From a virus: 27,176 nt of DNA. Positions within the stretch are counted from its first letter, which is position 1; each line of letters opens with the position of its first letter. Below are positions 2,989 through 26,114 of this stretch, piece by piece. The position numbers and the translations under genes were made by a program. The notes below the pieces were generated by a model. That model was not told the DNA's origin, did no database searches, and was given only the letters and a program-made list of their open reading frames with translations. The stretch is taken from IMG/VR virus record IMGVR_UViG_3300002835_000895, positions 1 through 27,176 of that record; one strand, given 5' to 3'.

Positions 2989-5900
2989 TTACACCTGAAC
3001 CTTCGCTGTTAATGACGCTAGATTACCTAAAGTCTCAGTCTCAACAAGACAGTATATTATTTTATCAAACAAAGGCGCAGTCTCAAGATCATTTACCATT
3101 GTTGTCGTACAAAAATCTTTATGCATTAGAATAGCAGCTTTGATGCGCGATCTAATTAGCTGTGATTCTTGCTCTTCAACTGGATATGTGTTTGCGATCT
3201 CTGTCGCTATATCATCTTCAGCAATAAGACGCTCGGGCTGAGATTTTGTGAAGGCATAACGCGGGTAAAGGCCATAAAGATCTTCAACATATGATTCTAG
3301 TGCTGACTGGACTTTCTGGCTATCATACGTCGGTCCTGTGTGTTGTGTGCCATTAGCTCTAAATATTGTGCCTATGCTATAGTTGAAACTATCTACAAAG
3401 ATTGACTTATTGTTATAATTTGTGAATCTTGTTGTAGATTCTTGATCATCTGTTACTGACACTGTTGACGAGCTGTAAGCATATCCAACGAGGCTGCCTG
3501 TTAGAGCATCCTGTGGGAGGTAGTAATCTACTCGCTGGAAGCTGCCATCTTTAAGGACCTTGTTAATGTGGACATTAAACTCTGGGGAGAAAGTTTGCTC
3601 TAACGGACTTTCTAGCCTAAGAACCTCAAGCATTCCGTATGGAATTCCTACGACATATATCTTGGCCTGACGCTCTGTTAGCACATCTCTGTGTGTAGCC
3701 TCGACAACTGATCTAAAGTATGGTGATCTTGCTGCCATGCTGGTCATATCAGTGTTTTTGATTAATTTCAAATAACGCTGTTGTCGATTTTTTAGCTCAA
3801 CTATCGACTCAGGCGTGCTGTATTTTGATATTAAAGATTTTGCTTTAGAAGCGGCAAGCTCGCTACTGGTATTGTCAAATGTTTGATATGCTCTAGTTAG
3901 ATTGTTATACGCAGTTACGGCTAAATCAACTTGAGTGAGCGCACTAGACAAAAGAGTGCGTGTGTAGGATGCAACATCAACAAATGACTCGTACTCGCTC
4001 AAAACACCTTGCACAATTCCTCTAATAGGACTCCAGAAGTTACTTCTTATTGCATCTTTTGTAGACTCGTACGGTTCTCCACCTCTATAAGCTGCGTAAG
4101 TTGAAAAATCCGTGATGTCTGATGTGGTGAGTGCTGATCTAAGACAGTCCGTAATGGCTGTTGTATCGCGCTTGGAAAACTCAACGAAGCCTACAATGCC
4201 GTTGTAATTCTCACCGCCTACTTCTTCGGTAAATCGAAGCTGGTATTTCACTTTAAGCAAACTTAGAATATCCAAAAACACTATATAAGATGTTATCTTT
4301 ATTGCACCTTCTGCTACTGTCCCATCAATTTGAGGAAATTGGCTAATGAACTTGTTTGCTATTCTGTCAAACATACCAAATGATGAGTCCGTGTCAAATA
4401 GCTTCTCAAGAAATCTTCTAGAAGTATCTGCGGTTGATTCTGCATCATCTTCCGTCTGTTGCACTTTATCTGCATAAGCGTCAAATGAGAAGACACCACC
4501 ATTTGAATAATCCGTATAAAGGCTGTCTCGACCAGCGATACTGTTCTTAATACCTTTCTCAAAATTGTCAATTTCTTCAGCATTTCTAATTTTAGCTTTA
4601 TTATTGCACATAGTCCAAACAACAGCTTTAAAGTATTCACTGCTGATGGCTCTAAAGAACATAATTGTTCTAGCAAGTGAGTATTTGCTAGAACCAGTTG
4701 TAAGCACTGATCCCTTAAAAAAGTTGTAATACTCGTCAAACATGCATTTCATCAAAAACACGGCAACTTGATTCGATAGGTAACCTGTGTTTGCAGTGAT
4801 AACATTGTCAAGCTGGTTTCTTGCATTTAAGATCTTGTCTTTAAGTGTAGAAAGCTCGTCTATGTCGAATGTAGTTGCTGCTAAAAGGCTTTTAGTAGTC
4901 GTAGAAGCTGCTTGATCATTTGCTATCTTTACATCAAATAAGCTGTAATTTTTATTTCCTATGCTTGCAACTAGCGGCAATTTATTTTCTGCTCCCGTAG
5001 AGTTGATTGTATACTCTTGAGAGTTATATGACGCATTTCTTAAAAATTGAGGTAGAGTTAGATTGTTGCTAGTCTCACCCCCAATTTGTTCGTTGATTAA
5101 ATTTGCTGTTATTAATATCAAATTTTTTGATCTTTCAGTGATACTTGGCGACGATTCGTCTATTTTCTTAAAATTGGGGATTACACCTTTAACGCCAGAC
5201 GGCTTTGATTTGGCAGTCTCAGAATCGAAGCCGCCAATTGCCTCTGTAAAACCGCCATTGTATGAATTTGTAATTGAATAGCCACCTATCTTGTAAAAAT
5301 CATTGAAATCAAAGCCATCGTCGTCTGGTTCATCAAACTCTTTTAAGAATTCGTCACTAATAAAGCCGCCTTCTTGCCAAGCTCGAGCAGTGCGCTCTAA
5401 AACGTGCCTATAGACACCTAATCCTTGACTTTCATTTACACTATACAACGGCTTTATTATAACATCTGGCTTAGATGATGCTGAACGCTGTGTAACAGAT
5501 GCACTAGTTCCGTACTTGAGAACGCTTACTCTATCATGCAGGACCTGCCCCAGAAGAGTTGATTTATAGATGCCGTACGGGAGAAGGTCATCAAAGTGAC
5601 TAGTAAACCTTGATGCTTTAATTACGTCATCATCATTGTATGGCGTTCCAGGCCTAGTCTGTGTAACAGATCCCGCGTATCTTAATGTGCTATTGAGATT
5701 ATTAGTTACAGTGTTGTATTCTGCAGGATCTGGCGCTGTCTTTACCGTTAATGTTGCAAGTAAGTTTCTGGCTGCGCTTGCTACGGTGCTAACAGAATTA
5801 GATCCTGTGTTGTAAAACGATAGATTTTTACTTCTGATCTTCTCTAATGCAGTTTTTTTGGCCTGATTTGTGCTGTAGAAGTTCTTAACTAGATCGTTTG

Positions 5901-6366
5901 CAATTTTAACTGTGCTGTCTTGTAGGTCTTGTTGAACTTTAACAATGTCATATGATGGGCTTTCTGAGCCAAAGTAGTTAGAGAACGGGACGTCGGCAAT
6001 TATGACAGGTTGATAGCTATTGATGCCCGATCCCGTGAGAAACACATCGTAATCTGTGGGTGCAAATGTGAAAACAATTTCTGTATCAAATGACCTGTCG
6101 CGGGGCGTAAACTTGTTTCTACTTGCTAGATTTGATTCTTTGTCCTGCGTGGATGATTGCGTTGCGGTGCCAAAAGTTGTTTTTTTCGTGCGCTTGTTCT
6201 CGTTTTCTCGATTTTGTGTTTCCTTATCGGTCTCTTGAGAAATTGCTACGCCTGTTGCAACGTTTGTAGCTATTCTTGTTGAAGCTGCTTTAGTTTTGGT
6301 AGATGCGGGCTTGCCGCTTCCAGAATTTTGAGCAACAAGACGTGTTGTTGGATTCTTAATAGGCAT
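2989..6366 (-). CDS. Very large unrecognised protein (1125 aa), likely virion component
   Basis: The ATG at 6366 directly follows the TAA of the upstream gene (TAAATG), with GGAG about nine bases before it. The first 90 or so residues are strikingly polar: rich in Thr, Ser, Lys, Asn and Glu, almost without aromatic residues, and so probably disordered. The rest looks mainly helical, with many Lys/Glu/Asn helices and few of the Gly/Ser beta-repeats seen in neighbouring fibre-like proteins. A Cys/Phe/Tyr-rich helical section lies near the middle (CMFDEYYNFFKG). No signal peptide or clear membrane segment is seen. Its size matches giant baseplate or wedge subunits, but I recognise no family and assign no function. 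Confidence 0.85.
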   Translation of the reverse strand: MPIKNPTTRLVAQNSGSGKPASTKTKAASTRIATNVATGVAISQETDKETQNRENENKRTKKTTFGTATQSSTQDKESNLASRNKFTPRDRSFDTEIVFTFAPTDYDVFLTGSGINSYQPVIIADVPFSNYFGSESPSYDIVKVQQDLQDSTVKIANDLVKNFYSTNQAKKTALEKIRSKNLSFYNTGSNSVSTVASAARNLLATLTVKTAPDPAEYNTVTNNLNSTLRYAGSVTQTRPGTPYNDDDVIKASRFTSHFDDLLPYGIYKSTLLGQVLHDRVSVLKYGTSASVTQRSASSKPDVIIKPLYSVNESQGLGVYRHVLERTARAWQEGGFISDEFLKEFDEPDDDGFDFNDFYKIGGYSITNSYNGGFTEAIGGFDSETAKSKPSGVKGVIPNFKKIDESSPSITERSKNLILITANLINEQIGGETSNNLTLPQFLRNASYNSQEYTINSTGAENKLPLVASIGNKNYSLFDVKIANDQAASTTTKSLLAATTFDIDELSTLKDKILNARNQLDNVITANTGYLSNQVAVFLMKCMFDEYYNFFKGSVLTTGSSKYSLARTIMFFRAISSEYFKAVVWTMCNNKAKIRNAEEIDNFEKGIKNSIAGRDSLYTDYSNGGVFSFDAYADKVQQTEDDAESTADTSRRFLEKLFDTDSSFGMFDRIANKFISQFPQIDGTVAEGAIKITSYIVFLDILSLLKVKYQLRFTEEVGGENYNGIVGFVEFSKRDTTAITDCLRSALTTSDITDFSTYAAYRGGEPYESTKDAIRSNFWSPIRGIVQGVLSEYESFVDVASYTRTLLSSALTQVDLAVTAYNNLTRAYQTFDNTSSELAASKAKSLISKYSTPESIVELKNRQQRYLKLIKNTDMTSMAARSPYFRSVVEATHRDVLTERQAKIYVVGIPYGMLEVLRLESPLEQTFSPEFNVHINKVLKDGSFQRVDYYLPQDALTGSLVGYAYSSSTVSVTDDQESTTRFTNYNNKSIFVDSFNYSIGTIFRANGTQHTGPTYDSQKVQSALESYVEDLYGLYPRYAFTKSQPERLIAEDDIATEIANTYPVEEQESQLIRSRIKAAILMHKDFCTTTMVNDLETAPLFDKIIYCLVETETLGNLASLTAKVQV

Positions 6367-8295
6367 TTAACGTATCTCCAGAGCGGCGTATGCGCCTTGA
6401 TTTTCGCCTGCTGGTACAGCAGTGACTTCTATCTTTCCTTTAATCCTTGAGTCAAGATAGAAATAACATTGTCTTTGTCCAGGTAAGGTTAAGGCTGTCT
6501 TAGTCACACCATTTACAGACACATTAAAATAGTAAGGGCTTCCTGTGTAGCTCCAGGACAGCATTTTTGAGCTAGGCGTGACTTGAACACGTAAGTCTTT
6601 GATCGAGATCGACGCTTGTTCTTTCGGTATGGAGATGTCAGCAAATATTCCTGTCCGACCAGCGTGAAAACCAAGATCTATACCCGATGCCGCATTTCCA
6701 TATTTCAGTGTGGAACCGCGTAAGGAAGATCTTGATAAGAACTTTGCTGTAAAAGAATTTTGTGATGCCTTAAAGCGATTAGAAATAGCCTTAGAAGCAG
6801 TGTCAACAATGTCTTTGGAATCTCTTGATATGTTTGCCAAGACGTTCTGGCTTGATGCTATATTTTCCATTAGTTCGGGTGCTGATCTAATTGCTGCCTC
6901 GAACCTATACAGGTAGCTTGCCTGCGTTGAGTTTGCGTATTCTACTTCGCCAGGTTCAATCACGCCCAGGTCTGCTTCTTCGCCCGATTCGAGATTAATT
7001 CTAGAGACAAGAACACGTATGAGCGGTTTTAGGTTGTTGGTCATTTTCTTAAGATCTTCATCAAAAAGATTATCAAGACCTACTTTTTTTAGATCGCTTA
7101 CGATTTGATCAAATGGTGACGTATTGTTATAGTTGACATCAATCCTGAATTTGGTGATAACTGTTCCTTCTTTAACAGTCTGCTCTACTTTTCTTGCTGC
7201 AACACTGGCAAGAGTGTTAAGCTTAAGGCTTGGAAGAAACAAGAAGCTCGATGATGTTTTTAACGTTGAATTTTCATCGATGTAGTCCAGGCTATAGACA
7301 CAGTCATATTGCGTTAACCGTTCAACATCCTTGATTACAAGGTCACCCGTAGTTACTCTCCCATCAGAGATAAATTTTCTTTCTGCCTGGTTAAGAATTT
7401 GTCTATAAAGCATCACCTTCTTTATTGAAGATGGCACATCTTTGACGATGAAAGTCACTCCAACGTCGTTGATGTTCGTAACATAGAAGGGAAAATACAA
7501 ATTAGTGTAGCTACTACCGACTTCAGTCTCAGTAGAATGTGACATCTTTCTGTTTGTGAATTTTGATGTAGGTGTGATAGAAAACTTTAACTTCTGGCCT
7601 CTCTCAATGTTGTAAGTAATTTGTGCTGTATTGTTATCATCTAGTGCACTGTCTCCAATCGATTCGAAAAAGACAGGGCGAACATCGGTCGGTGTCTCAT
7701 TTTTAACGAAAAAGTTAAACGCTCCGATGTTGTTATCAAATGATGATGCCTCTAATACCAGTGTGTTATCATCAATGTATCCAGATCTTAAAGAAAAGCC
7801 ATTTCCTGGTATGTCATAATTTTTTAACTTTTCATTGTGATTAATAGTGATAGATTCAGAAGTTGTCACGTTGTTGCTAGAGTCAACCTGAACGATTTGG
7901 AACACAAACTGGCTCCTAGCAAGAGAGGCAGGTATGTCTATGTCGTACACAAGATTTCGTCTATTGAGATCGACACGAGGAACATTGAAGACAACAAGCG
8001 GTGATAACTTTGTTTCAAAGCTCTGCAAGAGCTTGTCTTGCACAAGCTTGATAGCACTACCGTTTAGAATTGACCTTCGTGTAAGCTGCGCTTCAGGCAG
8101 CCTTTTTTGACTCTCGACAACTCTAACCTGTAGGTTTAGATTAGGATCGATGCTCACATTAGAATCATAAATCAAGCTAATTCTGTACGTAAAAAGCAGA
8201 TTCTCATCGATGCTTTTATGTGTGACAATAAAAAAGTCACTTTCATTGCCAAATCTTATCGGTGCTGTTGTCAGCTCTTGTGATGCAACGGGCAT
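6367..8295 (-). CDS. Unrecognised structural protein with Fn3-like beta domains (642 aa)
   Basis: The start is an ATG at 8295 that abuts the upstream stop as TAAATG, with GGTGAT about nine bases ahead. The protein is mainly beta. A segment at about residues 265-355 has a fibronectin III-like rhythm (FPFYVTNINDVGVTFIV, VMLYRQI, CVYSLDYIDENS). Another beta unit near the C-terminus (about 565-640) has LSWSYTGSPYYFNVSVNG and ends in EVTAVPAG. Between them is a more helical part (about 365-520). The N-terminal 160 residues look like further beta-sandwich material. It is coupled to both neighbours and shares the Fn3-like character of the 597-residue protein at 1194-2987. A tail-periphery or fibre function is inferred. 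Confidence 0.83.
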   Translation of the reverse strand: MPVASQELTTAPIRFGNESDFFIVTHKSIDENLLFTYRISLIYDSNVSIDPNLNLQVRVVESQKRLPEAQLTRRSILNGSAIKLVQDKLLQSFETKLSPLVVFNVPRVDLNRRNLVYDIDIPASLARSQFVFQIVQVDSSNNVTTSESITINHNEKLKNYDIPGNGFSLRSGYIDDNTLVLEASSFDNNIGAFNFFVKNETPTDVRPVFFESIGDSALDDNNTAQITYNIERGQKLKFSITPTSKFTNRKMSHSTETEVGSSYTNLYFPFYVTNINDVGVTFIVKDVPSSIKKVMLYRQILNQAERKFISDGRVTTGDLVIKDVERLTQYDCVYSLDYIDENSTLKTSSSFLFLPSLKLNTLASVAARKVEQTVKEGTVITKFRIDVNYNNTSPFDQIVSDLKKVGLDNLFDEDLKKMTNNLKPLIRVLVSRINLESGEEADLGVIEPGEVEYANSTQASYLYRFEAAIRSAPELMENIASSQNVLANISRDSKDIVDTASKAISNRFKASQNSFTAKFLSRSSLRGSTLKYGNAASGIDLGFHAGRTGIFADISIPKEQASISIKDLRVQVTPSSKMLSWSYTGSPYYFNVSVNGVTKTALTLPGQRQCYFYLDSRIKGKIEVTAVPAGENQGAYAALEIR

Positions 8296-9237
8296 TTAGT
8301 CTATCACCATGGTAAAAATATTGACAAATGTTGGAGAACCTGTCTCGTCAACAAAAACCTTGCCATAAAAGATGATTCTCTTAATGGGGTGAGCACGGTC
8401 GCTAGAGACTGTAACTTGACCATAATCGACAGCATCGAGCTTGATGATGCCCTCATTATTTGTTTCTAGTAACTGAATCACAAGATCGTTGGTGTCTGTT
8501 GTATCTGTGATCTCAATGTCAACTCTTTGCTTGACAGGATTTGCGTCTGTGCCTAGAGTCTCGTTAACAAGATCTTTATATGTGTATTGATTGAATTCCT
8601 TGATGTTTTCATAACGACCTAGACGACTTTGTGTGTTATTTACACTGACAACTGGTGGTAAGAACTTAAATTGAGCGAAGTTAGCTAAACGTTTATCAAA
8701 GAAGACAGAAGGCGCAGAATTTACTGTTTTTGGCTTATCACTAGGCTTAAACGGGTGTCCATTGTCAATTTGAAATGATGCAGTGTTTGATGAAACTATG
8801 AAGTTTGGACTAACATCTAGCGGGTCTCTGGATGCTATGATTGTATTATATGCGGTAGATTGCTGGAACATATTTGACACTGTTGAGATAGCAGACGAGA
8901 ATGATCCCGTGTTATTAAATCTCGTAATGTCCTTCCCACCTTGAAAAAGGTCACCGTTATCTGTGACTCGTATCCCAAAAGCGTCGATCGGGACAAGTTT
9001 TCCTGTGTCATCTGTCACCAAAGCAAAAGTATCTTGTGGCAGAGATGCCGGACTTTCTAACAAGACGCGATTGACAGCCTCATCAGATGATCCACTAATA
9101 GAGCTCGGGTCGTAATATGTCTGCCCATCTGTGAAAGTTGCGTAAGCGATGGTCAAGCCACCATTCGACAATGACGCACGACCGATGGGCGTCATAACAA
9201 CATCCATGATGCGCTTCTTTGAGTCTAAAAATCCCAT
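8296..9237 (-). CDS. Probable tail/baseplate structural protein with N-terminal MGFLD module (long paralogue)
   Basis: This gene encodes 313 residues from an ATG at 9237 with an AGGGG site upstream. The N-terminus (MGFLDSKKRIMDVVMTPIGR, then L, then YATFTDGQTYYD) follows the pattern of the 234-residue protein at 437-1141. Both have MGFLD, an I/V-rich helix, T..GR..L, and a strand leading to F.D(G). Both also contain the short string ISTVSN further on. The middle is Asn/Ser-rich and the C-terminal 90 residues look beta-rich (DIEITDTTDTNDLVIQLLE). The N-terminal pattern resembles in outline the attachment domain of tail-fibre proteins, but this is unverified. A virion role is inferred from location among tail genes. 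Confidence 0.82.
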   Translation of the reverse strand: MGFLDSKKRIMDVVMTPIGRASLSNGGLTIAYATFTDGQTYYDPSSISGSSDEAVNRVLLESPASLPQDTFALVTDDTGKLVPIDAFGIRVTDNGDLFQGGKDITRFNNTGSFSSAISTVSNMFQQSTAYNTIIASRDPLDVSPNFIVSSNTASFQIDNGHPFKPSDKPKTVNSAPSVFFDKRLANFAQFKFLPPVVSVNNTQSRLGRYENIKEFNQYTYKDLVNETLGTDANPVKQRVDIEITDTTDTNDLVIQLLETNNEGIIKLDAVDYGQVTVSSDRAHPIKRIIFYGKVFVDETGSPTFVNIFTMVID

Positions 9238-9259
9238 GTTGACGCGCCCCTAACTCTAA

Positions 9260-12190
9260 CTATTTGAATCCGAAGCTGCCTGTAATACCAAAGATGAGAT
9301 TATTAGGACCAGTTGATACGGTGGATGCAGGAACATCACGGCGATTTCTAGCACGACCATCATCATATGGGACTGATGATGTGCAGAATATGCTCACATT
9401 ACTGCACTGTGTCGTATAAGGATCTGCTTTTACATCTGTTGATGCATTGACAAACTCGGCTGTAACAACGCCATCAGTGACGACAGGTTTTGCACCAACA
9501 AAATACTGTGTCCTAGAGTCGCGTGACTGCTCTAGCATGTCTCTCACAAACCCATAGTGGTCACGCCTGTATGTGTAAGTTGGTGGTGTTAAACGTATGT
9601 TAGAAAGACCGTAGCGAACTGCAGCAGCACTACCGTAAAAGTACTTAAAAGGTGGCAAAATTAGAGTGCTAAATTGCTTGAAAAGAGGGTGCCACGCACT
9701 ATCATAGTACAAAATTGACCTTGCTGCATCACCTTTGCCTATAATTGACGTAAGTGACGAGCCTAGCGGTTGTGCAAGGATTTCTACTTCTATATCTCTA
9801 TTTCTTTTAGTTGTGGGTGTGCTAGTCTCGAAAGCGAAAGCATTTCTATAGTATGGATTACCTGACAACACTTCGATCTGGAATGAAATTCCGAATAGTG
9901 TGATGACAAATTGTACAGGCTTAATATTCTGGATAGGTAAAACTTTTGAAGAAAATGGACCTGCGCCAATATCAACCTGTAAAGGTGCTCTTTCTAGACG
10001 CAATCTTGTAGGAGGAACAGAGGCGCTGATTATATTTGATCCAACATATGATGATGTCAAATTAGCTGAAGCGCTTGCAATACCGGCTGCTATTGCGACT
10101 GGCTCTGGTGTCATTGAATCGTAAAAGATGGCATTCTGGTCAAGAATCTTAATGTTTCTGGCAAAAGATCCTGTGAATTGTGTGTTTAGATAGTCTAGAT
10201 AGCCGCCTGGCGTGAATTGAGCTTGATTAACGTCAGTGAAGTTACCAATCTTTCTTCTACTTGGCAGAGAATTGCCATTTATAATGTTGTTGACATACGA
10301 CGCAGAGAAATAAGATCGTGGGTAGACGTCATATTGATCTGTAACAGCGTTGTTATAGTGGATATCTTCACTAACAGCAGCTGAGCCAAGATGCTGGTTC
10401 AGGACTGGCAAAAGCTCTTTGCCGTTCTGGATGAGAGATCCGTATATTACGATCTTTGCATTCTCTTGCTTGATGGTGAGCGCCGACCCAGTGACATTAA
10501 GCACGGACTCATCTAGGCCGCTTCCTGCAGAGTTAACATATGCAGTATTCGGATGAACACCAGACTCGATTCCTAGGACTAGCTCATCCTCGGGAAACAG
10601 TATAATCGGCGTCTCAACGCTGCATGAGATTACTGTTGATATTTTGGCATCAGGCGTCCATGCTGTATCTGTTCTTGTGTCCTGCGTCGATTCCCAAAAT
10701 GATCCGATAAGCGCCCGCTGGCTCGGGACAGAAGCAACAAGATTTTGATTCATGCTGCCTGACTCGGCTTCGTATCCTGCCATCTTATTCAGAGTGAAGG
10801 TCGACGTACCCCAACGAACAAAGCTGTCATTTGTAGTGCCAGATGCATATTGACCGCCACGCCAAAAATGCTGCAGGATGACATTGTCTTTTGATGAAAC
10901 GTTGCTCCTGAATGCACCGTATTTTGATTGTCCGCCGTAATATTGATTAAATGTTGTGGGACGAAATGTCATGTAGACATTTGCATCAATTTCTTCTATC
11001 TGGCGAATGCCTGCGGTCTTTGCTTGTGTTGATGTCATGCCAAAAGATGCAGAATAAGCTGCATCATGTATTATGGGCTTTGCTTGTAGGGCAGAAGAAA
11101 ATGTTTGTGTGTTATAAAAACAGAATGACTTTCTAGCCACTAGATTTCTTATGCTACTTGAGACATCCGTTATGCTGTCTTTAATCACATTTGATCTGTT
11201 TTGCGTGTATAAGAAGACAACGTAGTTATCAATATCACGCCCAAAGCCAGCATCTCTTGTCCAGGTGACACTTACGGGCGGATTTTGAATTCTTCTAGCT
11301 TTGACAGGAAGCTCGATTGAAAATCTGTCTACAACAATTGGATGCTTAATGTAGTCTGATAGTTTGATCGTTTGGTTCTGATTTGCATGATAACGAGGTG
11401 CATATGGTGCCTCAAACATCGAGGTTGGCTCACCAATTTTATCGTAACCTCTATTATATTGCTCGCTAATAGTTGTAGGGGCTAAGCCTGCTGCAGTGTT
11501 AGTTGATCCTGCCACGTTAGGTGTGCTACAAAACTGCGACATCATCTTTCTATGACCGCTTGTCATTCTAGCATCAGACGAAGTCAAGATAGAAGTGTAA
11601 TTTAGATCTGCTCCTGTTACAGGATCAGTCTCACCGACATAGTCCCATGTCTTATTTGCAAAGTTAAAATACGCAAATCCTGTGTGGGTTGAGTCATAGA
11701 ACTCTCCTGCCGTTGAACCAGATACGCTGTCAACTCTGCTTAATCGCGTGATTTTTTTCTCAGCACTTGGTGTGATATCAATTGTTATGGCGATCTTGTC
11801 TTTTTCAGGTGATGAAAAACCTGGGTATGTGTTTTGTGGAAAGCCTTCATCTTCAGGCCCTAGGTTGTAGCCTGCTGGATTTGAATACTCAATAAACGGT
11901 GAAAGGATACCATTGTCAACAGGTTTTCCTAGATAAGATGTCGAATCTTTGATGTTGCTTGTGATGATTAAAGAGCCTGTCGCAAAACCTGCAGATTCAG
12001 CTGGAATCATATAAGGGGCCAAGATGACCTGGCTTGACGTGTAGACTAAGACATCGGCATCATTAAATGGCTCATTTTTTGCGCCAATCTCATTTTGATA
12101 GCCTGTCCTGACAATTGCAGGCAAAACATTTTTAGAGTCTAAGTCTCTTAGATAGGGTCGAGGCGAAACATTTAGTATTCTACTTTTCAT
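9260..12190 (-). CDS. Very large beta-rich structural protein (976 aa), possible fibre or adhesin
   Basis: The ATG at 12190 overlaps the upstream gene's stop by four bases (ATGA), implying translational coupling. The product is rich in Ser, Thr, Asn, Tyr and Gly and poor in Lys/Glu-rich helices, a composition typical of extended beta-structured fibre or baseplate-periphery proteins. Recurrent beta-strand motifs are visible, for example SIELPVKARRIQNPPVSVTW near the middle and repeated SGS/TGS turns. The sequence ends in ITGSFGFK. I find no catalytic motif, signal peptide or membrane segment and do not recognise a family. It shows no frameshift or internal stop. A receptor-binding or fibre role is possible but is inference from composition and position. 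Confidence 0.83.
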   Translation of the reverse strand: MKSRILNVSPRPYLRDLDSKNVLPAIVRTGYQNEIGAKNEPFNDADVLVYTSSQVILAPYMIPAESAGFATGSLIITSNIKDSTSYLGKPVDNGILSPFIEYSNPAGYNLGPEDEGFPQNTYPGFSSPEKDKIAITIDITPSAEKKITRLSRVDSVSGSTAGEFYDSTHTGFAYFNFANKTWDYVGETDPVTGADLNYTSILTSSDARMTSGHRKMMSQFCSTPNVAGSTNTAAGLAPTTISEQYNRGYDKIGEPTSMFEAPYAPRYHANQNQTIKLSDYIKHPIVVDRFSIELPVKARRIQNPPVSVTWTRDAGFGRDIDNYVVFLYTQNRSNVIKDSITDVSSSIRNLVARKSFCFYNTQTFSSALQAKPIIHDAAYSASFGMTSTQAKTAGIRQIEEIDANVYMTFRPTTFNQYYGGQSKYGAFRSNVSSKDNVILQHFWRGGQYASGTTNDSFVRWGTSTFTLNKMAGYEAESGSMNQNLVASVPSQRALIGSFWESTQDTRTDTAWTPDAKISTVISCSVETPIILFPEDELVLGIESGVHPNTAYVNSAGSGLDESVLNVTGSALTIKQENAKIVIYGSLIQNGKELLPVLNQHLGSAAVSEDIHYNNAVTDQYDVYPRSYFSASYVNNIINGNSLPSRRKIGNFTDVNQAQFTPGGYLDYLNTQFTGSFARNIKILDQNAIFYDSMTPEPVAIAAGIASASANLTSSYVGSNIISASVPPTRLRLERAPLQVDIGAGPFSSKVLPIQNIKPVQFVITLFGISFQIEVLSGNPYYRNAFAFETSTPTTKRNRDIEVEILAQPLGSSLTSIIGKGDAARSILYYDSAWHPLFKQFSTLILPPFKYFYGSAAAVRYGLSNIRLTPPTYTYRRDHYGFVRDMLEQSRDSRTQYFVGAKPVVTDGVVTAEFVNASTDVKADPYTTQCSNVSIFCTSSVPYDDGRARNRRDVPASTVSTGPNNLIFGITGSFGFK

Positions 12191-12903
12191 CTTAGCATCC
12201 CGGCGTATGTCACAGAGTCTGTCTCAAATATTGCAGAATATAGATCCCGACCAAATGACCCATATACACCATTGGGATCGAAAGAGTCATAGTTGAGAGT
12301 CGTGCCAAGTGAGCTTGTCAGAGTCGTGTCATAGAAAATCATCCTCGTCTCAGGTGTTATTCCATGATAACCAATCTTAGCTATTCCAAGCAGGCTTTCA
12401 CCTTCATCGATGAAAGGTGACTTTCTAGTACCTACGCTAAATCCAACGATAGACTCGTCTGTTGCTTTGACACCGCGCGCGTCGAACGGTATTTCGTCTC
12501 TAGCTAAGTAGCTCCTAGCGCTTAGCTTGAAGATTGTGATGCGACCATCCTTGCTGGTTGCAGCATCATAGTCAATGGTGTTTGATCTAATTATCTCTTC
12601 ATCAACAAGGACTTGCGCTGGTGTCTTGGTCTCGACAACGTCATTGAAGTGTTCATAATCAAGTGGATCAATTGTCTCACCCAAAACAGCGGGTAGAACT
12701 TCTTGATCAATAAGACCGTCATTAGACGCCTCAGCCCACTTTCCTGATGATATGAAGGGCTTAGATGATGCTCTAAAGACGTCTCTTCCTCTCCTAAGCT
12801 CTATTCCTTGCGCAAAATTTATATCGGGTGTAAAGCTTGTCGATACAGGTGTTGGAAGATTTTCGTAGTGACGAAATAAACTCTCTTCAATAAAAGGCTT
12901 CAT
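12187..12903 (-). CDS. Unrecognised protein of the baseplate/fibre cluster (238 aa)
   Basis: This gene is wedged between two giant genes with four-base ATGA overlaps at both ends (12900-12903 and 12187-12190), so its translation is likely coupled to both. The product starts MKPFIEESLFRHYENLPTP and is moderately acidic. A central stretch reads like a beta-structured domain (GRITIFKLSARSYLARDEIP, then IVGFSVGTRKSP), and the C-terminal part is rich in Tyr, Thr, Asp and Gly. I see no membrane segment, signal peptide or known motif. The tight coupling suggests it is made in proportion to its neighbours, for example as a connector or partner of the 1143- or 976-residue protein. This is inference. 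Confidence 0.82.
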   Translation of the reverse strand: MKPFIEESLFRHYENLPTPVSTSFTPDINFAQGIELRRGRDVFRASSKPFISSGKWAEASNDGLIDQEVLPAVLGETIDPLDYEHFNDVVETKTPAQVLVDEEIIRSNTIDYDAATSKDGRITIFKLSARSYLARDEIPFDARGVKATDESIVGFSVGTRKSPFIDEGESLLGIAKIGYHGITPETRMIFYDTTLTSSLGTTLNYDSFDPNGVYGSFGRDLYSAIFETDSVTYAGMLR

Positions 12904-15900
12904 TTTACTGACCCCGCGACATCATCGACTCTACTAATATTAGTTGTTACTGACGCCCCTGTTGTTGCGACAGCCATTTCTTCAGAATAGTATTTGACTT
13001 TGCCTCTTTCTAATATGTGAGGTTCGATTACGTAATTCATGCCTGAGAATCGCGTGCGCTTTGGAAGAGCCGCAGAGATCATCTGACTCAATGCTGTGTC
13101 GACCCATCTAAAAACTTGATAGGTTCGCATAAGATCAACTTTATCAGTTAGACGATTAAAATAAACGTCATTTAAGTGAACAAAATTCGAGTATGTGTCA
13201 GAAAACATGTCGGCATTGCTTCCTAAAACATTGTCTAGATATTGCATATCACCTATTGTTGCCACAATGTCCTGATCGAGTGCTTTAACAACAGAATGTT
13301 CTATTGAGTATCTAACGTCGTCAATGATGCTGTCAACACTGTAAATTTCATATGCGGGTCCTGTCACCGTGTATTGAGGATCAGTGGGCTCAACAACATC
13401 GAGTCCACGAACTCTGACCTTGTTTGAGCTTTGTTGCAAGTCAAAACGAGGTGCCAGCCTATTGATGAACTGTCTGTACGGCTTAATGACAGTCTTTCCG
13501 GCCTCAAATCCAGATCCGCTGATGTGTGATAGATTCTGGCTAAAGTCAAATATCCTTATATTTCCAGCAATATCTGCCGTTGTCGTGGCTTGATCGCAGC
13601 TGGCATCAACTCTTAGCCGTTGGAATGCACCAGTCTGTACTAGATCGAATCCCAGACCAAGCTCTGGATTCCTCGTGCCTATATTGTAGGGATTCCTTGC
13701 ATGTTCAATGAACGCCGGTTGACCCACATCGGTTGACCAGAATCTGACACCTGAAATTTTTCCTGTGAACATTGACGCAATCGAGCCAAATTCGTTGACA
13801 AAGCCATTCAGGCCACTTGCAGGTGCATCTAGGCTTTGTGAGCCGACAACAATAAAGCAACCCGAGGTGTTTTGAGTGCTGATATTCGATAGAGCATTGC
13901 TAGAGGCGTTTGGTGTCTCTAGGAAGTAAGACGACGTAGTGAATAACGTTACTGTGTTTCCTGCTTGTCTCGCGCATCTAACAGAGTAATTGCTACCCGA
14001 TCTGATGTTGAATGCATCGGCTCGTGTCCTTTCGACTCCCACAACCCATCTGTTACCATCAAATAGGTCAACACCTGACAGGACTAACTTTAAGACGTTT
14101 GGATTTGTTGTATTTACTGCGTCAACGCACAATGAGCAGGATAAATTTTTCATAACATTGTTATAAACAACATTCATTAAAACAGGATTCTTGCCCGCAC
14201 TTGAAGTTGTCTCCAAACGAATTAAGCTCTGCTGCGCAGGATGTGATTTTGTTGTGTCAAAAACATAGGATGCTTCAAGTGTAAATGAGCCGCTTGTAAG
14301 CAGGCCATCACTCACATTGTTAGAAATTCCGTGGGGTGAGTATTGAGTCTTATCTGTAAATGTGCCAACAGGATATGGATAACCAGTTTCAACTCTAGAG
14401 GCACTTAAATACGACCCAACCAGCCTAGGTGAGTCATTCTTGAAGCCCATTGGAACTGCGGAACCAGCAGGACTGTTAAGGCTTGCTGAGAAGTCCAGCA
14501 CAGACATTACCTCTAGTGTCTGCTCTCTCTTATCAACCAACCTTGTCTCACCTGCCATCCCTAGCTCTCTAATCTCGAAAAAGTTCTCAGGAACTATTCC
14601 AGATGACAAGAATATTGATCGTACAGCGGCGCCCGTGCCTTTTGTTACGTTGACATTTGGCATGTTGGCAAGCAACCTACGCCACAGTGTGTTGCGTAGG
14701 TCCTTAAGGGTGTAGCTAGTGACCTGATCTTCAGCAACATTTTGTCCAAAAATGAACTGATCTGTGCTTGACTTGGCAAAGAAGTTAGGCAACTCGACAC
14801 CAAAATAGTCAGCAACAAATGGTAGCATCTGGTCGCTTACATCTTCGTCTGAGTCAAGCTCAATGGCCAAAATCTTTGACATGCTGTCAGCAAATTGCTT
14901 GATCTCATCAAGAGTTATTGAGACTGTACACAAGAGCCGCACAAGTGATGACGTCTGTGCAATTCTTCCAGTTCCTGGGATTGTGTCGATCGCGGGCATG
15001 ACACCTAGACCAGAATCGAACTTGTTCAAACCGTTAGCCAGCGCGCTCTCATCAAGATAGTGAGGCGGAACTAGTGAAAGGATTATGTTTGGGTTGTCTT
15101 TGTCATAATCAGACGCGCTCGTGATCAGATCATAAAAGTAATTGTTGACAGCATCGTCACTTGGGAAAAGAACAGGATTGTAGTAATAATCCTGGTATGT
15201 CATTGGTTGTGCTAGCGACGATGTAAGTCTTAGACTACTGGTAAAGTTCTGGATATATGAATGCAGAGCATTACCAGATGAATCCAGAGCAACATCGTCA
15301 TAGTCATATGAACCATACGGTTCGTCAAAACCAAAACGCAACCGGAGCTGGTCTGTTGCATATTTCTGGTGGTATGCGTAATCGTTGATATCAGCTTGAG
15401 TTCTCTCTCCGACAAAAAATCTGAACTCATCCAGCGCGCCACTGAAGGTTGTCTGTGGGCTAATGGCATAATCAATTATGGAATGATACGAACCAGAACC
15501 GATGAACATGTTCTGTGTTGTAAAAGTCAGATCACCAAAATCTTGAATATCAGATGATGACGCGATTAGTGACCCATTGACATATACTGCAGCTATTTTC
15601 CCACTGTCTTGCGTGCTTAGACACGCTCTTAGATGATTAAACCGACCTTTTTGTATAGATCCTGATGCTATGACATATGCTTCTGATGCGGATGATACCA
15701 GGAACATGATATTGCATTGCGTTGTGTCAGAAGAATTATCAAGTGCTAACGTGAAACCCGCATCAGATGACAGCCTCTGCGCAATAACTTGGACGTTGTT
15801 TGTGATAGCAGGAATAAAGACGTGTGTCTCGATCTCGAATGGGCTATCAGATAAGAGCAAAGCATTCTGCCCTGTTGCCCCAGGTGCTTGCGAGAAGTTA

Positions 15901-16331
15901 TTACCTGCTATAGGGCTTACAGTAATATAAGATCCGCCACCAGGTGCTGCGCTACCAGAAAAATTTAAGTATCCTACATTCTTAGGTGTATTGTCGTATA
16001 TAAACCTCTCGAATCCTGTCATCTGCTGGATGAATAGATCGACATCGCTTAAAGAGCCCGTATAGGGAAATTGATTAAAAATTTTGTATGCTGCTAGATC
16101 TATCTTGGCTCTAGCAGGAGCAAAAAAAGCATGATTTTCAAATTTAGAGAAATCTATTGAAAGCTGCTGTGTTGACTTAATTCCAGATCTATAAGAGTCA
16201 AGTTCGAATGCTGCATTTGATGTGTTTCTAGAGAACAAGGTGCTGTTGCTGATGTTCTTGCTTACGCCGTTAGTCGTGCTTAGACTCGATTTAGCTGTAA
16301 AAATCGATGGGCGTGTTCTTAAGCGTGGCAT
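12900..16331 (-). CDS. Giant baseplate wedge-like protein: gpI/gp7-type core flanked by two LamG-like domains
   Basis: This gene encodes 1143 residues. The ATG at 16331 overlaps the upstream TAA (TAATG). Residues about 165-330 form a concanavalin A/LamG-like domain (FEIETHVFIPA, then GRFNHLRACLS, IAAVYVNGSLIAS, GALDEFRFF). A second, more divergent one spans about 680-895 (GSFTLEASYVF, then GFVNEF, ISGVRFWS). Between them, at about 475-595, is a helical stretch with TLWRRLLANMPNV, KGTGAAVRSIF and FFEIRELG, which resembles the tail protein I region of P2-like baseplates (T4 gp7 counterpart). The C-terminus carries an IEPHILERGKVKYY motif that I recall from other phage tail proteins. Its position downstream of gp25- and gp6-like genes supports a wedge role. 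LamG folds usually bind carbohydrate, so it may also contact the host surface. Domain calls are by eye. Confidence 0.85.
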   Translation of the reverse strand: MPRLRTRPSIFTAKSSLSTTNGVSKNISNSTLFSRNTSNAAFELDSYRSGIKSTQQLSIDFSKFENHAFFAPARAKIDLAAYKIFNQFPYTGSLSDVDLFIQQMTGFERFIYDNTPKNVGYLNFSGSAAPGGGSYITVSPIAGNNFSQAPGATGQNALLLSDSPFEIETHVFIPAITNNVQVIAQRLSSDAGFTLALDNSSDTTQCNIMFLVSSASEAYVIASGSIQKGRFNHLRACLSTQDSGKIAAVYVNGSLIASSSDIQDFGDLTFTTQNMFIGSGSYHSIIDYAISPQTTFSGALDEFRFFVGERTQADINDYAYHQKYATDQLRLRFGFDEPYGSYDYDDVALDSSGNALHSYIQNFTSSLRLTSSLAQPMTYQDYYYNPVLFPSDDAVNNYFYDLITSASDYDKDNPNIILSLVPPHYLDESALANGLNKFDSGLGVMPAIDTIPGTGRIAQTSSLVRLLCTVSITLDEIKQFADSMSKILAIELDSDEDVSDQMLPFVADYFGVELPNFFAKSSTDQFIFGQNVAEDQVTSYTLKDLRNTLWRRLLANMPNVNVTKGTGAAVRSIFLSSGIVPENFFEIRELGMAGETRLVDKREQTLEVMSVLDFSASLNSPAGSAVPMGFKNDSPRLVGSYLSASRVETGYPYPVGTFTDKTQYSPHGISNNVSDGLLTSGSFTLEASYVFDTTKSHPAQQSLIRLETTSSAGKNPVLMNVVYNNVMKNLSCSLCVDAVNTTNPNVLKLVLSGVDLFDGNRWVVGVERTRADAFNIRSGSNYSVRCARQAGNTVTLFTTSSYFLETPNASSNALSNISTQNTSGCFIVVGSQSLDAPASGLNGFVNEFGSIASMFTGKISGVRFWSTDVGQPAFIEHARNPYNIGTRNPELGLGFDLVQTGAFQRLRVDASCDQATTTADIAGNIRIFDFSQNLSHISGSGFEAGKTVIKPYRQFINRLAPRFDLQQSSNKVRVRGLDVVEPTDPQYTVTGPAYEIYSVDSIIDDVRYSIEHSVVKALDQDIVATIGDMQYLDNVLGSNADMFSDTYSNFVHLNDVYFNRLTDKVDLMRTYQVFRWVDTALSQMISAALPKRTRFSGMNYVIEPHILERGKVKYYSEEMAVATTGASVTTNISRVDDVAGSVK

Positions 16332-17845
16332 TACTCAACCCTAAATTTTGCTGCTACATCATTAATAGCCACTTCTTGTCCTTTGTTCACGATCTTGAAA
16401 TCAAACGTGTATGTCCTGCCTCTTGGAAGAGATGACATATAAAAGTCAAAGTAATGTGTTGTAGCATCGTTAGATGTTTTTGTTCCAGGATCGTGATAGG
16501 GAATTATCACATCACCACTTTCGAAGTCTCGAACTCTATAGAAGCATTTTTCAACTATGATGCCTGTGTTCTCTAGCGGTGTCTTAACATACTGTATTTC
16601 ACGGTTAAAATCTTCAATAAAGATCTTGAATCTAAATTTCTCATCAAACTTGTAGAATGATCTCATATTTACAATATTGATAAAATAGCGCTCAGGAGAC
16701 TGGGTGAAATATGTTGTGTTTCTGGGTGTGACGGTCAATGATCCGGTTGCAAATTGAACTGTCTGGTCATTCGATAGCCATTTGACACCAAAGTTAAGCG
16801 ACGGGTAATTGTTTCCTGTCATGTAAGGAAATATGTCGCTATCGTAAGAATTTATCAAGAATGAAGCTGAATAGATGCCCGTGATGTATGTGTTTCCAAT
16901 TTTATGCTGTGAAGCATTAAAGGAACGTGATAGAGAGCCAGATATTAGTTTTACCTTTATGCAATCTTGCCCTGTCAAGGCTGTAAGTGAAGATCCTGAT
17001 AACAAGTTAGATGGCGAGCTTCTAGTAAATGAGTTTAAGAAAATTGATCCTGACGTGTTAAATTCAAAGATCTGTGTGTTATCTGAGATTGTGTCGTCAT
17101 ACGTGACGATCAACTCGGGACGTTTAGATGTGTTAGTCGTGTTTCTCGATGCAAACCTCTTAACAAATCTTGTCTTGGCGTCTTCTTCTTGAGCTGCAAT
17201 AAACGATATTCTAAAACCTGCATCAGGCAGCTGACCTGACAGCACGCCCGATACAATCTTTGTTACATCTACATCAAGATCTTCTTCACCTGTCTCGAAA
17301 GACTGCGTCGCAGCAAGTGAAATTGTCCCAAGTCCGTCATTCAAGTTACCTAGCGTAAAGTAGTCTAAGTTAGGACTACCTAGAGTGCCTCCAGCTGCAG
17401 CGCCTTGCGATGACCATAAAGTTGCCGATAGTGACGTTGATGCTGTTATAAAGTTCACAACATCAATATCTTCAAATCTAATGATGTCGCGTCCTACACC
17501 CTCATCAAAGCTTTTTGACAACGGATAGACTACAAGTGAGAAGTTAGACGGTGTCGTTTGGCCGCCGTAGACGTCATGCATGTACAGACGACACTTAAAA
17601 TTAGGAGATGCTGGATCAAATTCTCCTAAAGCTAGCGTGCTAATAAGATTGCTAATATCAAAATGTATGAGACCTCTCGACAGCTCTATGGGATTTGTCT
17701 CGCCTACAATTGAATTTTCGTCATAAAGCTTGAACAGGTCGACTGTGCCTGCCTGTCCCGTGTTAGTGTCAAGTGCTCGCAACGTCGGCGATATGATCTT
17801 GTTGGTAATGTATGCATCTTTATCAGATTGAAAGACTCTGTACAC
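16331..17845 (-). CDS. Structural protein with DNRLRE-like N-terminal beta-sandwich
   Basis: This gene encodes 504 residues and starts with GTG at 17845; a strong AGGAG lies six bases upstream and decides the start. Residues about 1-250 follow the layout of DNRLRE-type domains: an early DAYI, then RGLIHFDIS (about 57-65), an RLYMH strand (about 86-90), and a closing FASRN..KRPELIVTYDD segment (about 231-251). That fold is a surface or carbohydrate-associated beta-sandwich. The C-terminal half looks beta-rich, with strings such as FNTSGSIFLNSF and YFINIVNMRSFYKF, and ends in a strand-rich module (TYTFDFKIVNKGQEVAINDV). It lies between the gp6-like and gpI-like genes, a place with no equivalent in P2. 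A baseplate decoration or fibre-docking role is inferred. Confidence 0.83.
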   Translation of the reverse strand: MYRVFQSDKDAYITNKIISPTLRALDTNTGQAGTVDLFKLYDENSIVGETNPIELSRGLIHFDISNLISTLALGEFDPASPNFKCRLYMHDVYGGQTTPSNFSLVVYPLSKSFDEGVGRDIIRFEDIDVVNFITASTSLSATLWSSQGAAAGGTLGSPNLDYFTLGNLNDGLGTISLAATQSFETGEEDLDVDVTKIVSGVLSGQLPDAGFRISFIAAQEEDAKTRFVKRFASRNTTNTSKRPELIVTYDDTISDNTQIFEFNTSGSIFLNSFTRSSPSNLLSGSSLTALTGQDCIKVKLISGSLSRSFNASQHKIGNTYITGIYSASFLINSYDSDIFPYMTGNNYPSLNFGVKWLSNDQTVQFATGSLTVTPRNTTYFTQSPERYFINIVNMRSFYKFDEKFRFKIFIEDFNREIQYVKTPLENTGIIVEKCFYRVRDFESGDVIIPYHDPGTKTSNDATTHYFDFYMSSLPRGRTYTFDFKIVNKGQEVAINDVAAKFRVE

Positions 17846-17853
17846 GTTTTCTC

Positions 17854-19704
17854 CTAAGCTGCATTACCAATAATGTCTGAATCGGGGTACTTGACCTCAA
17901 ATATCCCACCTCTAGGAGGAACTAGCCTGCCCTTGCTTATTGAGTTTGCTACGCTAATTGGAATTGATGAGTATTTTCTGTCATCAATTGTGCCCGTCAG
18001 GCTTGTGAATGTGTAGCTGTCTAAGCTTATTACGCCGTCTTGATTAATTATGAGGTTGATAAGGTCAGATATTAAGATGGGCGCTTCAATATTCATATTA
18101 GGTGTAGCAAGATATTCTTTCAAAGCGTTGTTGATTCTAGTAATAATTGCTGATTTATCGTCTCTAGGATCAACAGTGACCTTATAGTTGAAGCCCACAT
18201 TGACAATTTTTGCGTCCAAGATGTCAAATGAGTCAGAGACAAGCCTAAACTCGTTGATATAAGTTGCAATATTTCTTTTCAAGGTGTCAGGTGATTTTGA
18301 CAATTTTTCATCTGCGTCACGGCTGACCAGGTACAGTATTGATGATAATGGGTTGACAGGATTGGGGCTGATTCCTATCCTAAAGGGTCTGCCAAAGTTT
18401 GATGGCATGGTGTAGACACGCGATATTAGGTCTTCTTTAGATACAATTCTGTTCTGTGAATTTCTAACAGATAGCGCGACCTGCCTCAAGTCCTCTAGCG
18501 TAGGAGCATTTTCACCTCCCTGTGCGGCCGCGATGTTATTGACTGTTGTTGATGCTCTTATCGCTGCAACTTTACCTGGTGAGACTGATGAACTAAATGA
18601 GGTAACCAGGTTACCAACAGTTTTGATGGTGTTAGGTGAGACGTTGTGTGACACACCCCCACCGTATCTGTACCGCACTCTAAGTGTGGTATTTGCAGGT
18701 GTTATTCCTAGGCTTTGGGAGTTTAGAAGTGAATTAGGGTCAATTGAAACCTTTGAGAAAGACTTTCTGTCACCATACAGTGGCAAAGAAACCTGGCTTG
18801 GGTCAGGTAAGATATCGTTATCTAGAGAAGATGCGTCACCTGACCCGAAAATTAGCTGGACTGCGCCAGAGTCTGCTGCGACACGAGCAACAAATCGATA
18901 GGGTGCAGGTATAACGGCAATTGCATTTGGAACTTGATCATTGTCATCACGAACATTGTCAACGATCTTAAAGACAGTGTCTTGAGCTAGAGTATCAACT
19001 TCATAGTATTCGTTTCCTTCCGTGTCTTTGACAAGAAGAATCTCGTTCACGTTGGAATTGGTCAAGTCTATAGTCTTGAATGGTGTTAAATCTCCACCGA
19101 AAGTGAACAGCTCTTCTGCTGTTGCGCCTGAGACAAAAGTTCCAGTTCGCGTCACGTTAAATGATGTTGGGACGCCTGCTGAACCTGTTGACGCAACTCT
19201 ATATCTTGCAATGTACTTATTTTTTGCATTAATCTGTGAGAAATCAACGTCATCCACTAGAGAAAACTCGATCCCAGTGTTTGATCGGACTGTAGTGCCG
19301 ATGTTGACAATTGGAAGTTGTGAGCTTTTCGGTAGGTATCCCTGTGATGTTAATTCAGCATCTACCTTGAACGTAAGATCAACATCACAAAAAGCGGGCG
19401 ATGCGCCTTTAATCTTGACCCCTGCTAACCTAATCAGCCTTTCAACATTCGCACGTTCTACAGCCGTGTCAAGGCTAAGCTCATTGAACTGGTGGTCAAG
19501 GTAGAAAGAAGTGGTGTCACCGATATAGGCAACAAGATCTAGAAGCATGCCTCCAACAGATGCCTCAGAAAAATCCTGGATCTTGTCAGGAAAGTATGCC
19601 TGTGCATATTGAAGAAGCTCTGCTCTAAAACTATCGAAGTCACGGGCAAGATAGTTCCTCTGGCGCTTCTGCTTCAGTGTCTTTTTAACATCAGTTAAAG
19701 CCAT
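17854..19704 (-). CDS. 6: Baseplate wedge protein, gp6/gpJ-like (Baseplate J family)
   Basis: In contractile tails this protein forms the iris-like ring of the baseplate wedge that changes shape when the sheath contracts. The product is 616 residues (T4 gp6 is 660). The N-terminus contains the family's typical stretch: RNYLARDFDSFRAELLQYA (16-34), then VGGMLLDLVAYIGDTTSFYL (50-69) and TAVERANVERLIRLAG (80-95). The central region carries the Baseplate J-type segment with GGENAPTLEDLRQVAL and VSKEDLISRVYTMP (396-434). The ATG at 19704 has AAGAAG before it. The gp25-like gene ends six bases upstream, giving the W-J order seen in P2-, Mu- and T4-type baseplates. I am confident of the family but not of which detailed subtype it belongs to. 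Confidence 0.92.
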   Translation of the reverse strand: MALTDVKKTLKQKRQRNYLARDFDSFRAELLQYAQAYFPDKIQDFSEASVGGMLLDLVAYIGDTTSFYLDHQFNELSLDTAVERANVERLIRLAGVKIKGASPAFCDVDLTFKVDAELTSQGYLPKSSQLPIVNIGTTVRSNTGIEFSLVDDVDFSQINAKNKYIARYRVASTGSAGVPTSFNVTRTGTFVSGATAEELFTFGGDLTPFKTIDLTNSNVNEILLVKDTEGNEYYEVDTLAQDTVFKIVDNVRDDNDQVPNAIAVIPAPYRFVARVAADSGAVQLIFGSGDASSLDNDILPDPSQVSLPLYGDRKSFSKVSIDPNSLLNSQSLGITPANTTLRVRYRYGGGVSHNVSPNTIKTVGNLVTSFSSSVSPGKVAAIRASTTVNNIAAAQGGENAPTLEDLRQVALSVRNSQNRIVSKEDLISRVYTMPSNFGRPFRIGISPNPVNPLSSILYLVSRDADEKLSKSPDTLKRNIATYINEFRLVSDSFDILDAKIVNVGFNYKVTVDPRDDKSAIITRINNALKEYLATPNMNIEAPILISDLINLIINQDGVISLDSYTFTSLTGTIDDRKYSSIPISVANSISKGRLVPPRGGIFEVKYPDSDIIGNAA

Positions 19705-19710
19705 TTCTTC

Positions 19711-20181
19711 TTACCCTATGTTTGTGAGAATTATCTCAAGAAGCTTTGATGAAGTTGTTAGTCGAGGTATGGAAAACTTCACAAGTACTTTAACCTTTGA
19801 CAAAGATTCTGTGTCAGTTTGCATTGTCTGGACCTCAAAAGTGTCAAGATTGACATACGGCATGTACTTCTCTGTCGTTGCCTTGATCAATAGCATGGCT
19901 TGAGATTCATAATCATCAATTGCAAGTCTTTCTGTCAAAAGCTGTCTTAGGTTTGCACCATAGTCAAACAGTGGGACCCTTTCGCCATGATTAGTCAACA
20001 GCATGTTTCTAAAATTGTCGATAACTTGATTGACAATGCTTGTTGACATTTCTAGTGGTCCGCCAACCTTGCTGCTGTATACCACAGGAGTTACAATTCC
20101 CACAGGAACAGGCTGGCGTGTCTGTGCTGCACGCACATCCACATTCAACTCACCTACACTTTTAAAGCTACGCTCTGCCAT
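19711..20181 (-). CDS. 25: Baseplate wedge/sheath initiator, gp25/gpW-like
   Basis: This 156-residue protein (T4 gp25 is 132) belongs to the family that nucleates sheath assembly on the baseplate. The diagnostic segment is at residues 54-82: an amphipathic helix, then LLTNHGERVPLFDYGANLRQ, which matches the family's helix-GER-P-(F/L)-x-x-x-G layout, with G66, E67 and R68. It is followed by TERLAIDDYESQAMLLIK and a C-terminal beta hairpin (LSKVKVLVKFSIPRL). The ATG at 20181 has no convincing ribosome-binding site in the 31-nt gap above it (20182-20212). AGGGC is present but about 25 bases away, so initiation may rely on unstructured leader or coupling. Immediately downstream is the gp6-like gene, as expected. 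Confidence 0.93.
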   Translation of the reverse strand: MAERSFKSVGELNVDVRAAQTRQPVPVGIVTPVVYSSKVGGPLEMSTSIVNQVIDNFRNMLLTNHGERVPLFDYGANLRQLLTERLAIDDYESQAMLLIKATTEKYMPYVNLDTFEVQTMQTDTESLSKVKVLVKFSIPRLTTSSKLLEIILTNIG

Positions 20182-23412: not shown

Positions 23413-23686
23413 CAGATACAGGCTCCTGTAGATTTGATATCGTATTGGCAACTTTCAAGATAGATTCTTGACTTAATCTAATTTCTTGGACTGTCTGTCT
23501 AACCTCAATCGAATCAAAGAATATTGGTTTTTCAAGAATTTTAGAAACTACCTTATAGCGTTCGTCAAGGTCGTCAAGACACTCTTCGATCGCGTCCTCA
23601 AGACGTAGGATAATTAGGCCGAATCTGACATTATAGTAGATGGATACACATAAAAGTAGAAAAATGATTGACGTCAAGATAAGCAT
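23399..23686 (-). CDS. Small single-pass membrane protein with coiled-coil-like tail (95 aa)
   Basis: The ATG at 23686 overlaps the upstream glycosyltransferase stop as TAATG. The first 27 or so residues are hydrophobic (MLILTSIIFLLLCVSIYY), a likely N-terminal membrane anchor or uncleaved signal. The rest is acidic and helical (LEDAIEECLDDLDERYKVVS, then EVRQTVQEIRLSQESILKVA), giving a coiled-coil-like pattern. I have seen similar small anchored helical proteins in T4-related phages but cannot name a function. Cleavage is not obvious. It overlaps the sigma gene's start by 14 bases. Confidence 0.8.
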   Translation of the reverse strand: MLILTSIIFLLLCVSIYYNVRFGLIILRLEDAIEECLDDLDERYKVVSKILEKPIFFDSIEVRQTVQEIRLSQESILKVANTISNLQEPVSDEKD

Positions 23687-26081: not shown

Positions 26082-26114
26082 GGTACCTGTTCTAAACAAT
26101 AGCACCGCGCATAA

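Follow-up and report, generated by a model that had tools for sequence, protein, structure and literature searches.

Two LamG-type folds in a probable gpI/gp7-type baseplate wedge protein of an environmental phage

The window analyzed here is the complete 27,176-base virus record IMGVR_UViG_3300002835_000895, which IMG/VR classes as a linear fragment, and the gene in question is an open reading frame (ORF) at 12900..16331 on its minus strand. The product (feature P0001) was assigned from the ORF, its domain matches, and a gp6-like neighbor; it is very likely a baseplate wedge subunit of the gpI/gp7 type from a large phage with a contractile tail, and it almost certainly contains two LamG folds, here called LamG1 and LamG2. 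A preliminary description of the sequence had taken it for a baseplate wedge protein fused to two carbohydrate-binding-type domains that might also act in host recognition or fiber docking; the observation was confirmed, and the interpretation was partly supported. The explanation that best fits the findings overall, and that we consider moderately probable, is a wedge subunit in which LamG2 is a standing domain and LamG1 occupies a slot for adhesion modules. The ORF encodes 1,143 amino acids (aa) from an ATG start with no internal stop codons, and it overlaps the adjoining gene on either side by a few bases. A chance or misread feature was ruled out, the ORF being intact and the same architecture being present on the separate contigs L006, L007, and L008; a related architecture was found at L009 to L012 and at L020.

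LamG1 (residues 117 to 372; 15216..15983, minus strand) was recognized by both profile and fold. Pfam Laminin_G_3 matched residues 162 to 316 of the window protein (expect value [E], 2.7e-12; 47.5 bits versus a cut-off of 27.6), where a LamG-like domain had been proposed at about residues 165 to 330, and the segment searched alone gave an E of 1.4e-12. In a structure model of the whole protein (mean predicted local distance difference test [pLDDT] score, 55.7), residues 117 to 372 matched LamG-type folds, the best being the LamG domain of PAPP-A (residues 117 to 366; Z, 18.2; root mean square deviation [rmsd], 3.0 over 196 residues). In this fold search, a best Z of 7 to 8 was typical of models without a clear match.

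LamG2 (residues 607 to 958; 13458..14513, minus strand) separates the core from the C-terminal helical part and was recognized from its fold and its signature residues. It had no Pfam match in the window protein, even at an E of 10. In a second model, covering residues 380 to 1143 (mean pLDDT, 64.0; predicted TM score, 0.62), residues 607 to 958 matched the PAPP-A LamG domain, pentraxins, and neurexins, with a best Z of 14.0 (rmsd, 3.2 over 193 residues). Weak Laminin_G_3 matches, below the cut-off, were found at the LamG2 position in four of the five relatives scanned (E of 0.013, 0.0023, 6.8e-5, and 0.0082). The LamG1 and LamG2 profiles matched each other (94%; E, 1.1e-7; 51 and 26 columns) over a shared C-terminal signature. 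As had been proposed, the models placed a LamG fold on either side of a mostly helical core; the proposed domain boundaries were good apart from those of LamG2 (given as about 680 to 895), which proved to be longer. Sequence searches of solved structures returned nothing for the family profiles or for LamG1 or LamG2 alone.

Conservation was assessed among relatives from IMG/VR, in which two scans confirmed at least 463 and at least 548 stretches; the best 80 of each set were analyzed. An alignment of 102 sequences was built from ORFs that covered 75% or more of a LamG2-containing profile (158 of 160 passed, and 101 were left after removal of near-duplicates). In this alignment, the LamG2 signature residues G857, E861, R863, and W865 were present in 98, 97, 98, and 100 sequences, respectively. 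The helical core (residues 380 to 600; 14532..15194, minus strand) had a mean pairwise identity of 40% and was modeled as mostly helical, with pLDDT values mostly of 60 to 87, and the C-terminal helical part (residues 1005 to 1115; 12987..13319, minus strand) had a mean pairwise identity of 45%.

The assignment to the gpI/gp7 type came from the end of the core. With hhalign, residues 493 to 594 or 595 matched gpI, at 81% (E, 1.2e-5) against a profile of 10 gpI-type proteins and at 61% (E, 7.9e-5) with a larger second alignment, whereas seven controls (T4 gp6, gp8, gp9, and gp10 and P2 H, J, and W) each scored <1% in both comparisons. The matching stretch (14547..14855, minus strand) contains a KGT motif at residues 564 to 566, and G565 and E589 were invariant in all 102 sequences. 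The middle of the protein, at about residues 475 to 595, had been called gpI/gp7-like; the gpI part of this claim stood, and the direct comparison with T4 gp7 gave no match. The middle segment of the window protein had no Pfam match. The gpI family Tail_P2_I (PF09684) did not pass its cut-off: there was no match in the window protein, the best E was 0.037 among relatives (in 2 of 68) and 0.024 in LR756508, and T4 likewise had no Tail_P2_I match. The protein is therefore classed as gpI/gp7-type on the basis of its profile match and position and not as a member of PF09684. As to position, 79 of 84 loci had a gp6-like gene on the same strand, upstream of the wedge gene, which, together with the gpI match, supports the wedge identity; of the other five loci, four begin at most 742 bases from a contig end, and L032 has 3.3 kb upstream with no match.

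The window protein belongs to a large unnamed family, for the core of which Pfam, PHROG, and NCBIfam searches found no describing model. Microcystis phage Mel-JY01, Flavobacterium phage immuto, and LR756508, an uncultured phage of 484 kb, each have a homolog at the matching genome position; a query with the Mel-JY01 protein matched 6 of 50,697 phage records. A library of viral structures gave ten unnamed viral proteins at an E of 1e-19 or better, which added no function. Of the best 80 relatives from the first IMG/VR scan, most measured about 1,600 to 1,800 aa and had several hundred residues ahead of the core, as in the N-terminal 800 to 900 residues at L061, L074, and similar loci; in five such proteins scanned with Pfam and PHROG, this region was left unnamed. 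A scan of genome contigs gave a single relative among 27 stretches, on a short contig of a metagenome-assembled genome labeled Nitrosopelagicus, which is probably a misbinned viral contig. A viral-contig scan with P2 gpI returned near-identical P2 relatives only (loci L089 to L168) and was not used.

The two LamG domains differ in their distribution, LamG2 being common to the large family and LamG1 being found among close relatives only. The immuto homolog aligned to the LR756508 homolog on either side of LamG2 (E of 3e-45 and 2e-10), with about 360 residues missing in between, and because it lacks LamG2 and keeps both flanks, including the C-terminal helical part, LamG2 can be said to be nested inside a conserved protein. 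The loss was flagged in this one of 164 ORFs, ORFs that end before the C-terminal part being ones that could not be flagged. As far as the alignments indicate, LamG2 is thus a family-wide feature, a statement to be read as an upper estimate since relatives were ranked by their match to LamG2-containing queries. The immuto protein (gp109; L004:15621-19418) is a cultured relative that offers a natural comparison for the role of LamG2.

For LamG1, the sequences point to an additional insertion that, among the relatives examined, is limited to the clade of the window protein. Pfam detected Laminin_G_3 there in five of seven relatives scanned, with no match in the results for L009 and L054. The N-terminal segment (residues 1 to 116; 15984..16331, minus strand) contains a conserved helical element at residues 69 to 84. 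Residues 21 to 98 aligned to residues 253 to 330 of the Mel-JY01 homolog (BLASTP; E, 2e-4), and a pattern for the element matched 46 of 164 ORFs, among them the window protein and L001, a near-identical copy of it. The element lies 61 to 137 residues ahead of the core in the pattern-matched homologs and 312 residues ahead of it in the window protein; the extra distance, about 200 residues, corresponds to LamG1. The two modules were found as insertions at two places, one of them family-wide, and not as the simple fusion that had been described.

A further module was found in the same loop. The L020 relative (L020:8863-13956) has a head-spike-fiber domain, NF048003, at residues 166 to 328 (E, 1.6e-24; 87.5 bits versus a cut-off of 36), within a 192-residue insert that directly precedes LamG1 and whose flanks are 65% and 57% identical to L009; the insert had no match in any other ORF searched. 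The head spike fiber of RcGTA binds capsular polysaccharide, according to PMC10218006. The presence of this domain in L020 suggests that the loop carrying LamG1 serves as a slot for adhesion modules.

In the proposed arrangement, by extrapolation from solved wedges, each of six wedges would contain one copy of the wedge protein, which would join a pair of gp6-like subunits. According to PMC10457771, a wedge of phage XM1 comprises two copies of gp16 and one of gp17, a set with homology to the (gp6)2-gp7 module of T4. LamG2 would form a standing peripheral domain, presumably at the wedge rim, and LamG1 would serve as an exchangeable contact module in the slot, where it may touch host surface glycans or docked fibers at the rim of the baseplate. 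A function of LamG1 as an adhesion module, for the host or for a fiber, is slightly favored, and the wedge may plausibly take part in host recognition. The role in host recognition or fiber docking that had been proposed for the protein is supported indirectly, because LamG1 lies at a variable insertion site and L020 has a spike-fiber domain there. A wider proposal, that the loop ahead of the core is a slot for exchange of LamG, head-spike-fiber, and perhaps further binding domains, with the result that contact with the host at the baseplate rim would be coupled directly to the contraction trigger, is tentative and rather doubtful.

Several results weigh against the favored explanation as a whole. 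T4 gp7, together with two relatives, matched the wedge family at <1%, in a test of low power given that gpI and gp7 themselves matched at just 0.1%. The C-terminal part alone also matched gpI at 0.1%. In the second model, the helical core had no match to a solved fold in a Foldseek search of the PDB (best E, 0.14), which does not show that the core fold is new. Both structure models are of moderate confidence by mean pLDDT, the spike-fiber insert is known from a single relative, and, between closely related sequences, LamG1 varied little more than the core did (72% versus 76% and 51% versus 59% identity). Conservation does not separate the readings: LamG2 was the least conserved region in most close pairs, and LamG1 ranked slightly under the core.

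Both LamG domains could instead be purely structural, filling the space between wedges and anchoring the fibers specified by the downstream genes, without touching the host. The retention of LamG2 across the family would fit such a role, as would the scarcity of the downstream genes for 976-, 642-, 1,125-, and 597-aa proteins, which were found in at most 2 other loci of 84, as expected for separate fibers; in AlgoCIS, moreover, tail fibers are bound by the gp7-like part of Alg12, according to PMC8894135. A structural role does not predict that LamG1 would be present in one clade, at the very site where L020 bears a head-spike-fiber domain, and this alternative is considered unlikely. Going further in the opposite direction, the wedge protein might be the main receptor-binding protein, with LamG1 and LamG2 binding host glycans and signaling directly to the wedge, so that contraction would need no separate fiber. 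Two LamG folds within one wedge protein, the low conservation of LamG2, and the wedge protein Alg11 of AlgoCIS, which has two carbohydrate-binding modules and a suggested role in attachment (PMC8894135), are in keeping with this idea; it is nonetheless improbable, given that several large unmatched genes downstream are possible fibers and that LamG2, variable as its sequence is, was seen to be absent in immuto but nowhere swapped for another domain. That the protein is a peripheral adhesin or fiber connector with a short chance likeness to gpI is very improbable: the gpI match spans only about 100 residues, Tail_P2_I scores are as poor as those given above, and the core lacks a solved fold, but the negative controls at <1%, the wedge gene neighborhood, and the two invariant residues of the gpI-like stretch oppose it.

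The favored wedge subunit, with LamG2 standing and LamG1 in the slot, can be set beside several known systems. It resembles tail protein I of P2-like phages in the KGT region, which aligned over about 100 residues, and in a gene order in which the wedge gene follows gp25- and gp6/J-type genes; P2 gpI differs in having 176 aa, compared with 1,143 aa and two LamG insertions here, and one extra gene separates the gp6-like gene from the wedge gene in the window. T4 gp7 is likewise a long wedge protein, whose gene directly follows gp6 in T4, but its sequence match to the window family was undetectable (<1%). The homologs in Mel-JY01 (WWT39511), immuto (gp109), and LR756508 share the core and the place after the wedge genes but lack LamG1 and have extra N-terminal regions, and that of immuto also lacks LamG2. 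PMC8894135 describes the gp7-like part of AlgoCIS Alg12 as laterally exposed and in contact with tail fibers and terms it a hotspot of evolutionary re-engineering, features that recall the fiber-binding and insertion site proposed here. The same source places the two carbohydrate-binding modules of Alg11 in the spike cage and suggests that they contribute to attachment; no closer precedent was found for a wedge protein with sugar-binding-type modules, with the difference that the AlgoCIS modules are in Alg11 and not in the gp7-like part, whereas the LamG folds here are inserted in a phage gpI/gp7-type protein. In cyanophage A-1(L), wedges anchor the tail fibers, according to PMC10966104. LamG domains are reported from five gene products of a jumbo Pseudomonas phage, with an unclear function and a supposed accessory role at the cell surface (PMC8541153).

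Wedge subunits themselves were already known, and what is new is the insertion of LamG folds in a phage wedge protein of the gpI/gp7 type; no description of LamG domains in such a protein was found in the titles and abstract openings of open-licence literature. A large family of environmental phage proteins for which the Pfam, PHROG, and NCBIfam searches found no model thereby gains a provisional identity. The places at which binding-type modules are inserted in a wedge protein become visible, and the idea that the baseplate touches the host becomes testable domain by domain.

In the order of transcription, the genes of this region are a gp25-like gene, a gp6/J-like gene, gene X, the wedge gene, and then genes for proteins of 238, 976, 313, 642, 1,125, and 597 aa. 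The putative gp25-like sheath initiator (156 aa; 19711..20181, minus strand) was matched weakly by the baseplate wedge subunit family phrog_43 (E, 0.014), and genes at the corresponding position are annotated as tail lysozyme or baseplate assembly protein. The gp6/J-like baseplate wedge protein (616 aa; 17854..19704, minus strand) matched phrog_6 (E, 1.1e-21) and has full-length relatives in immuto phages, Mel-JY01, and LR756508. Gene X (504 aa; 16331..17845, minus strand) had no family match and has homologs beside the wedge genes of relatives: a profile built from its counterparts in Mel-JY01, immuto, and LR756508 found a match in 79 of 84 loci, most relatives having the homolog close to the gp6-like gene, and gene X probably encodes another part of the wedge.

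The downstream proteins of 238, 976, 642, 1,125, and 597 aa had no Pfam match at an E of 0.05 or better, and those of 976 and 1,125 aa had no match in phage records. In a search that covered the sequence around each of the 84 loci, which is short in many, the 976-, 642-, and 1,125-aa genes (within 2989-12190, minus strand) were recognized in two other loci, L006 and L007, and the 597-aa gene was recognized in none. The large genes among them (976, 642, 1,125, and 597 aa) could encode separate fibers, a correction to the suggestion that the wedge protein takes over functions usually held by such fibers. Elsewhere in the window, two adjacent glycosyltransferase genes (23686-26105, minus strand) matched phrog_2170 (E of 6.9e-20 and 4.9e-17), and an exonuclease gene beside the pair (26115-26924) matched phrog_69 (E, 6.8e-18).

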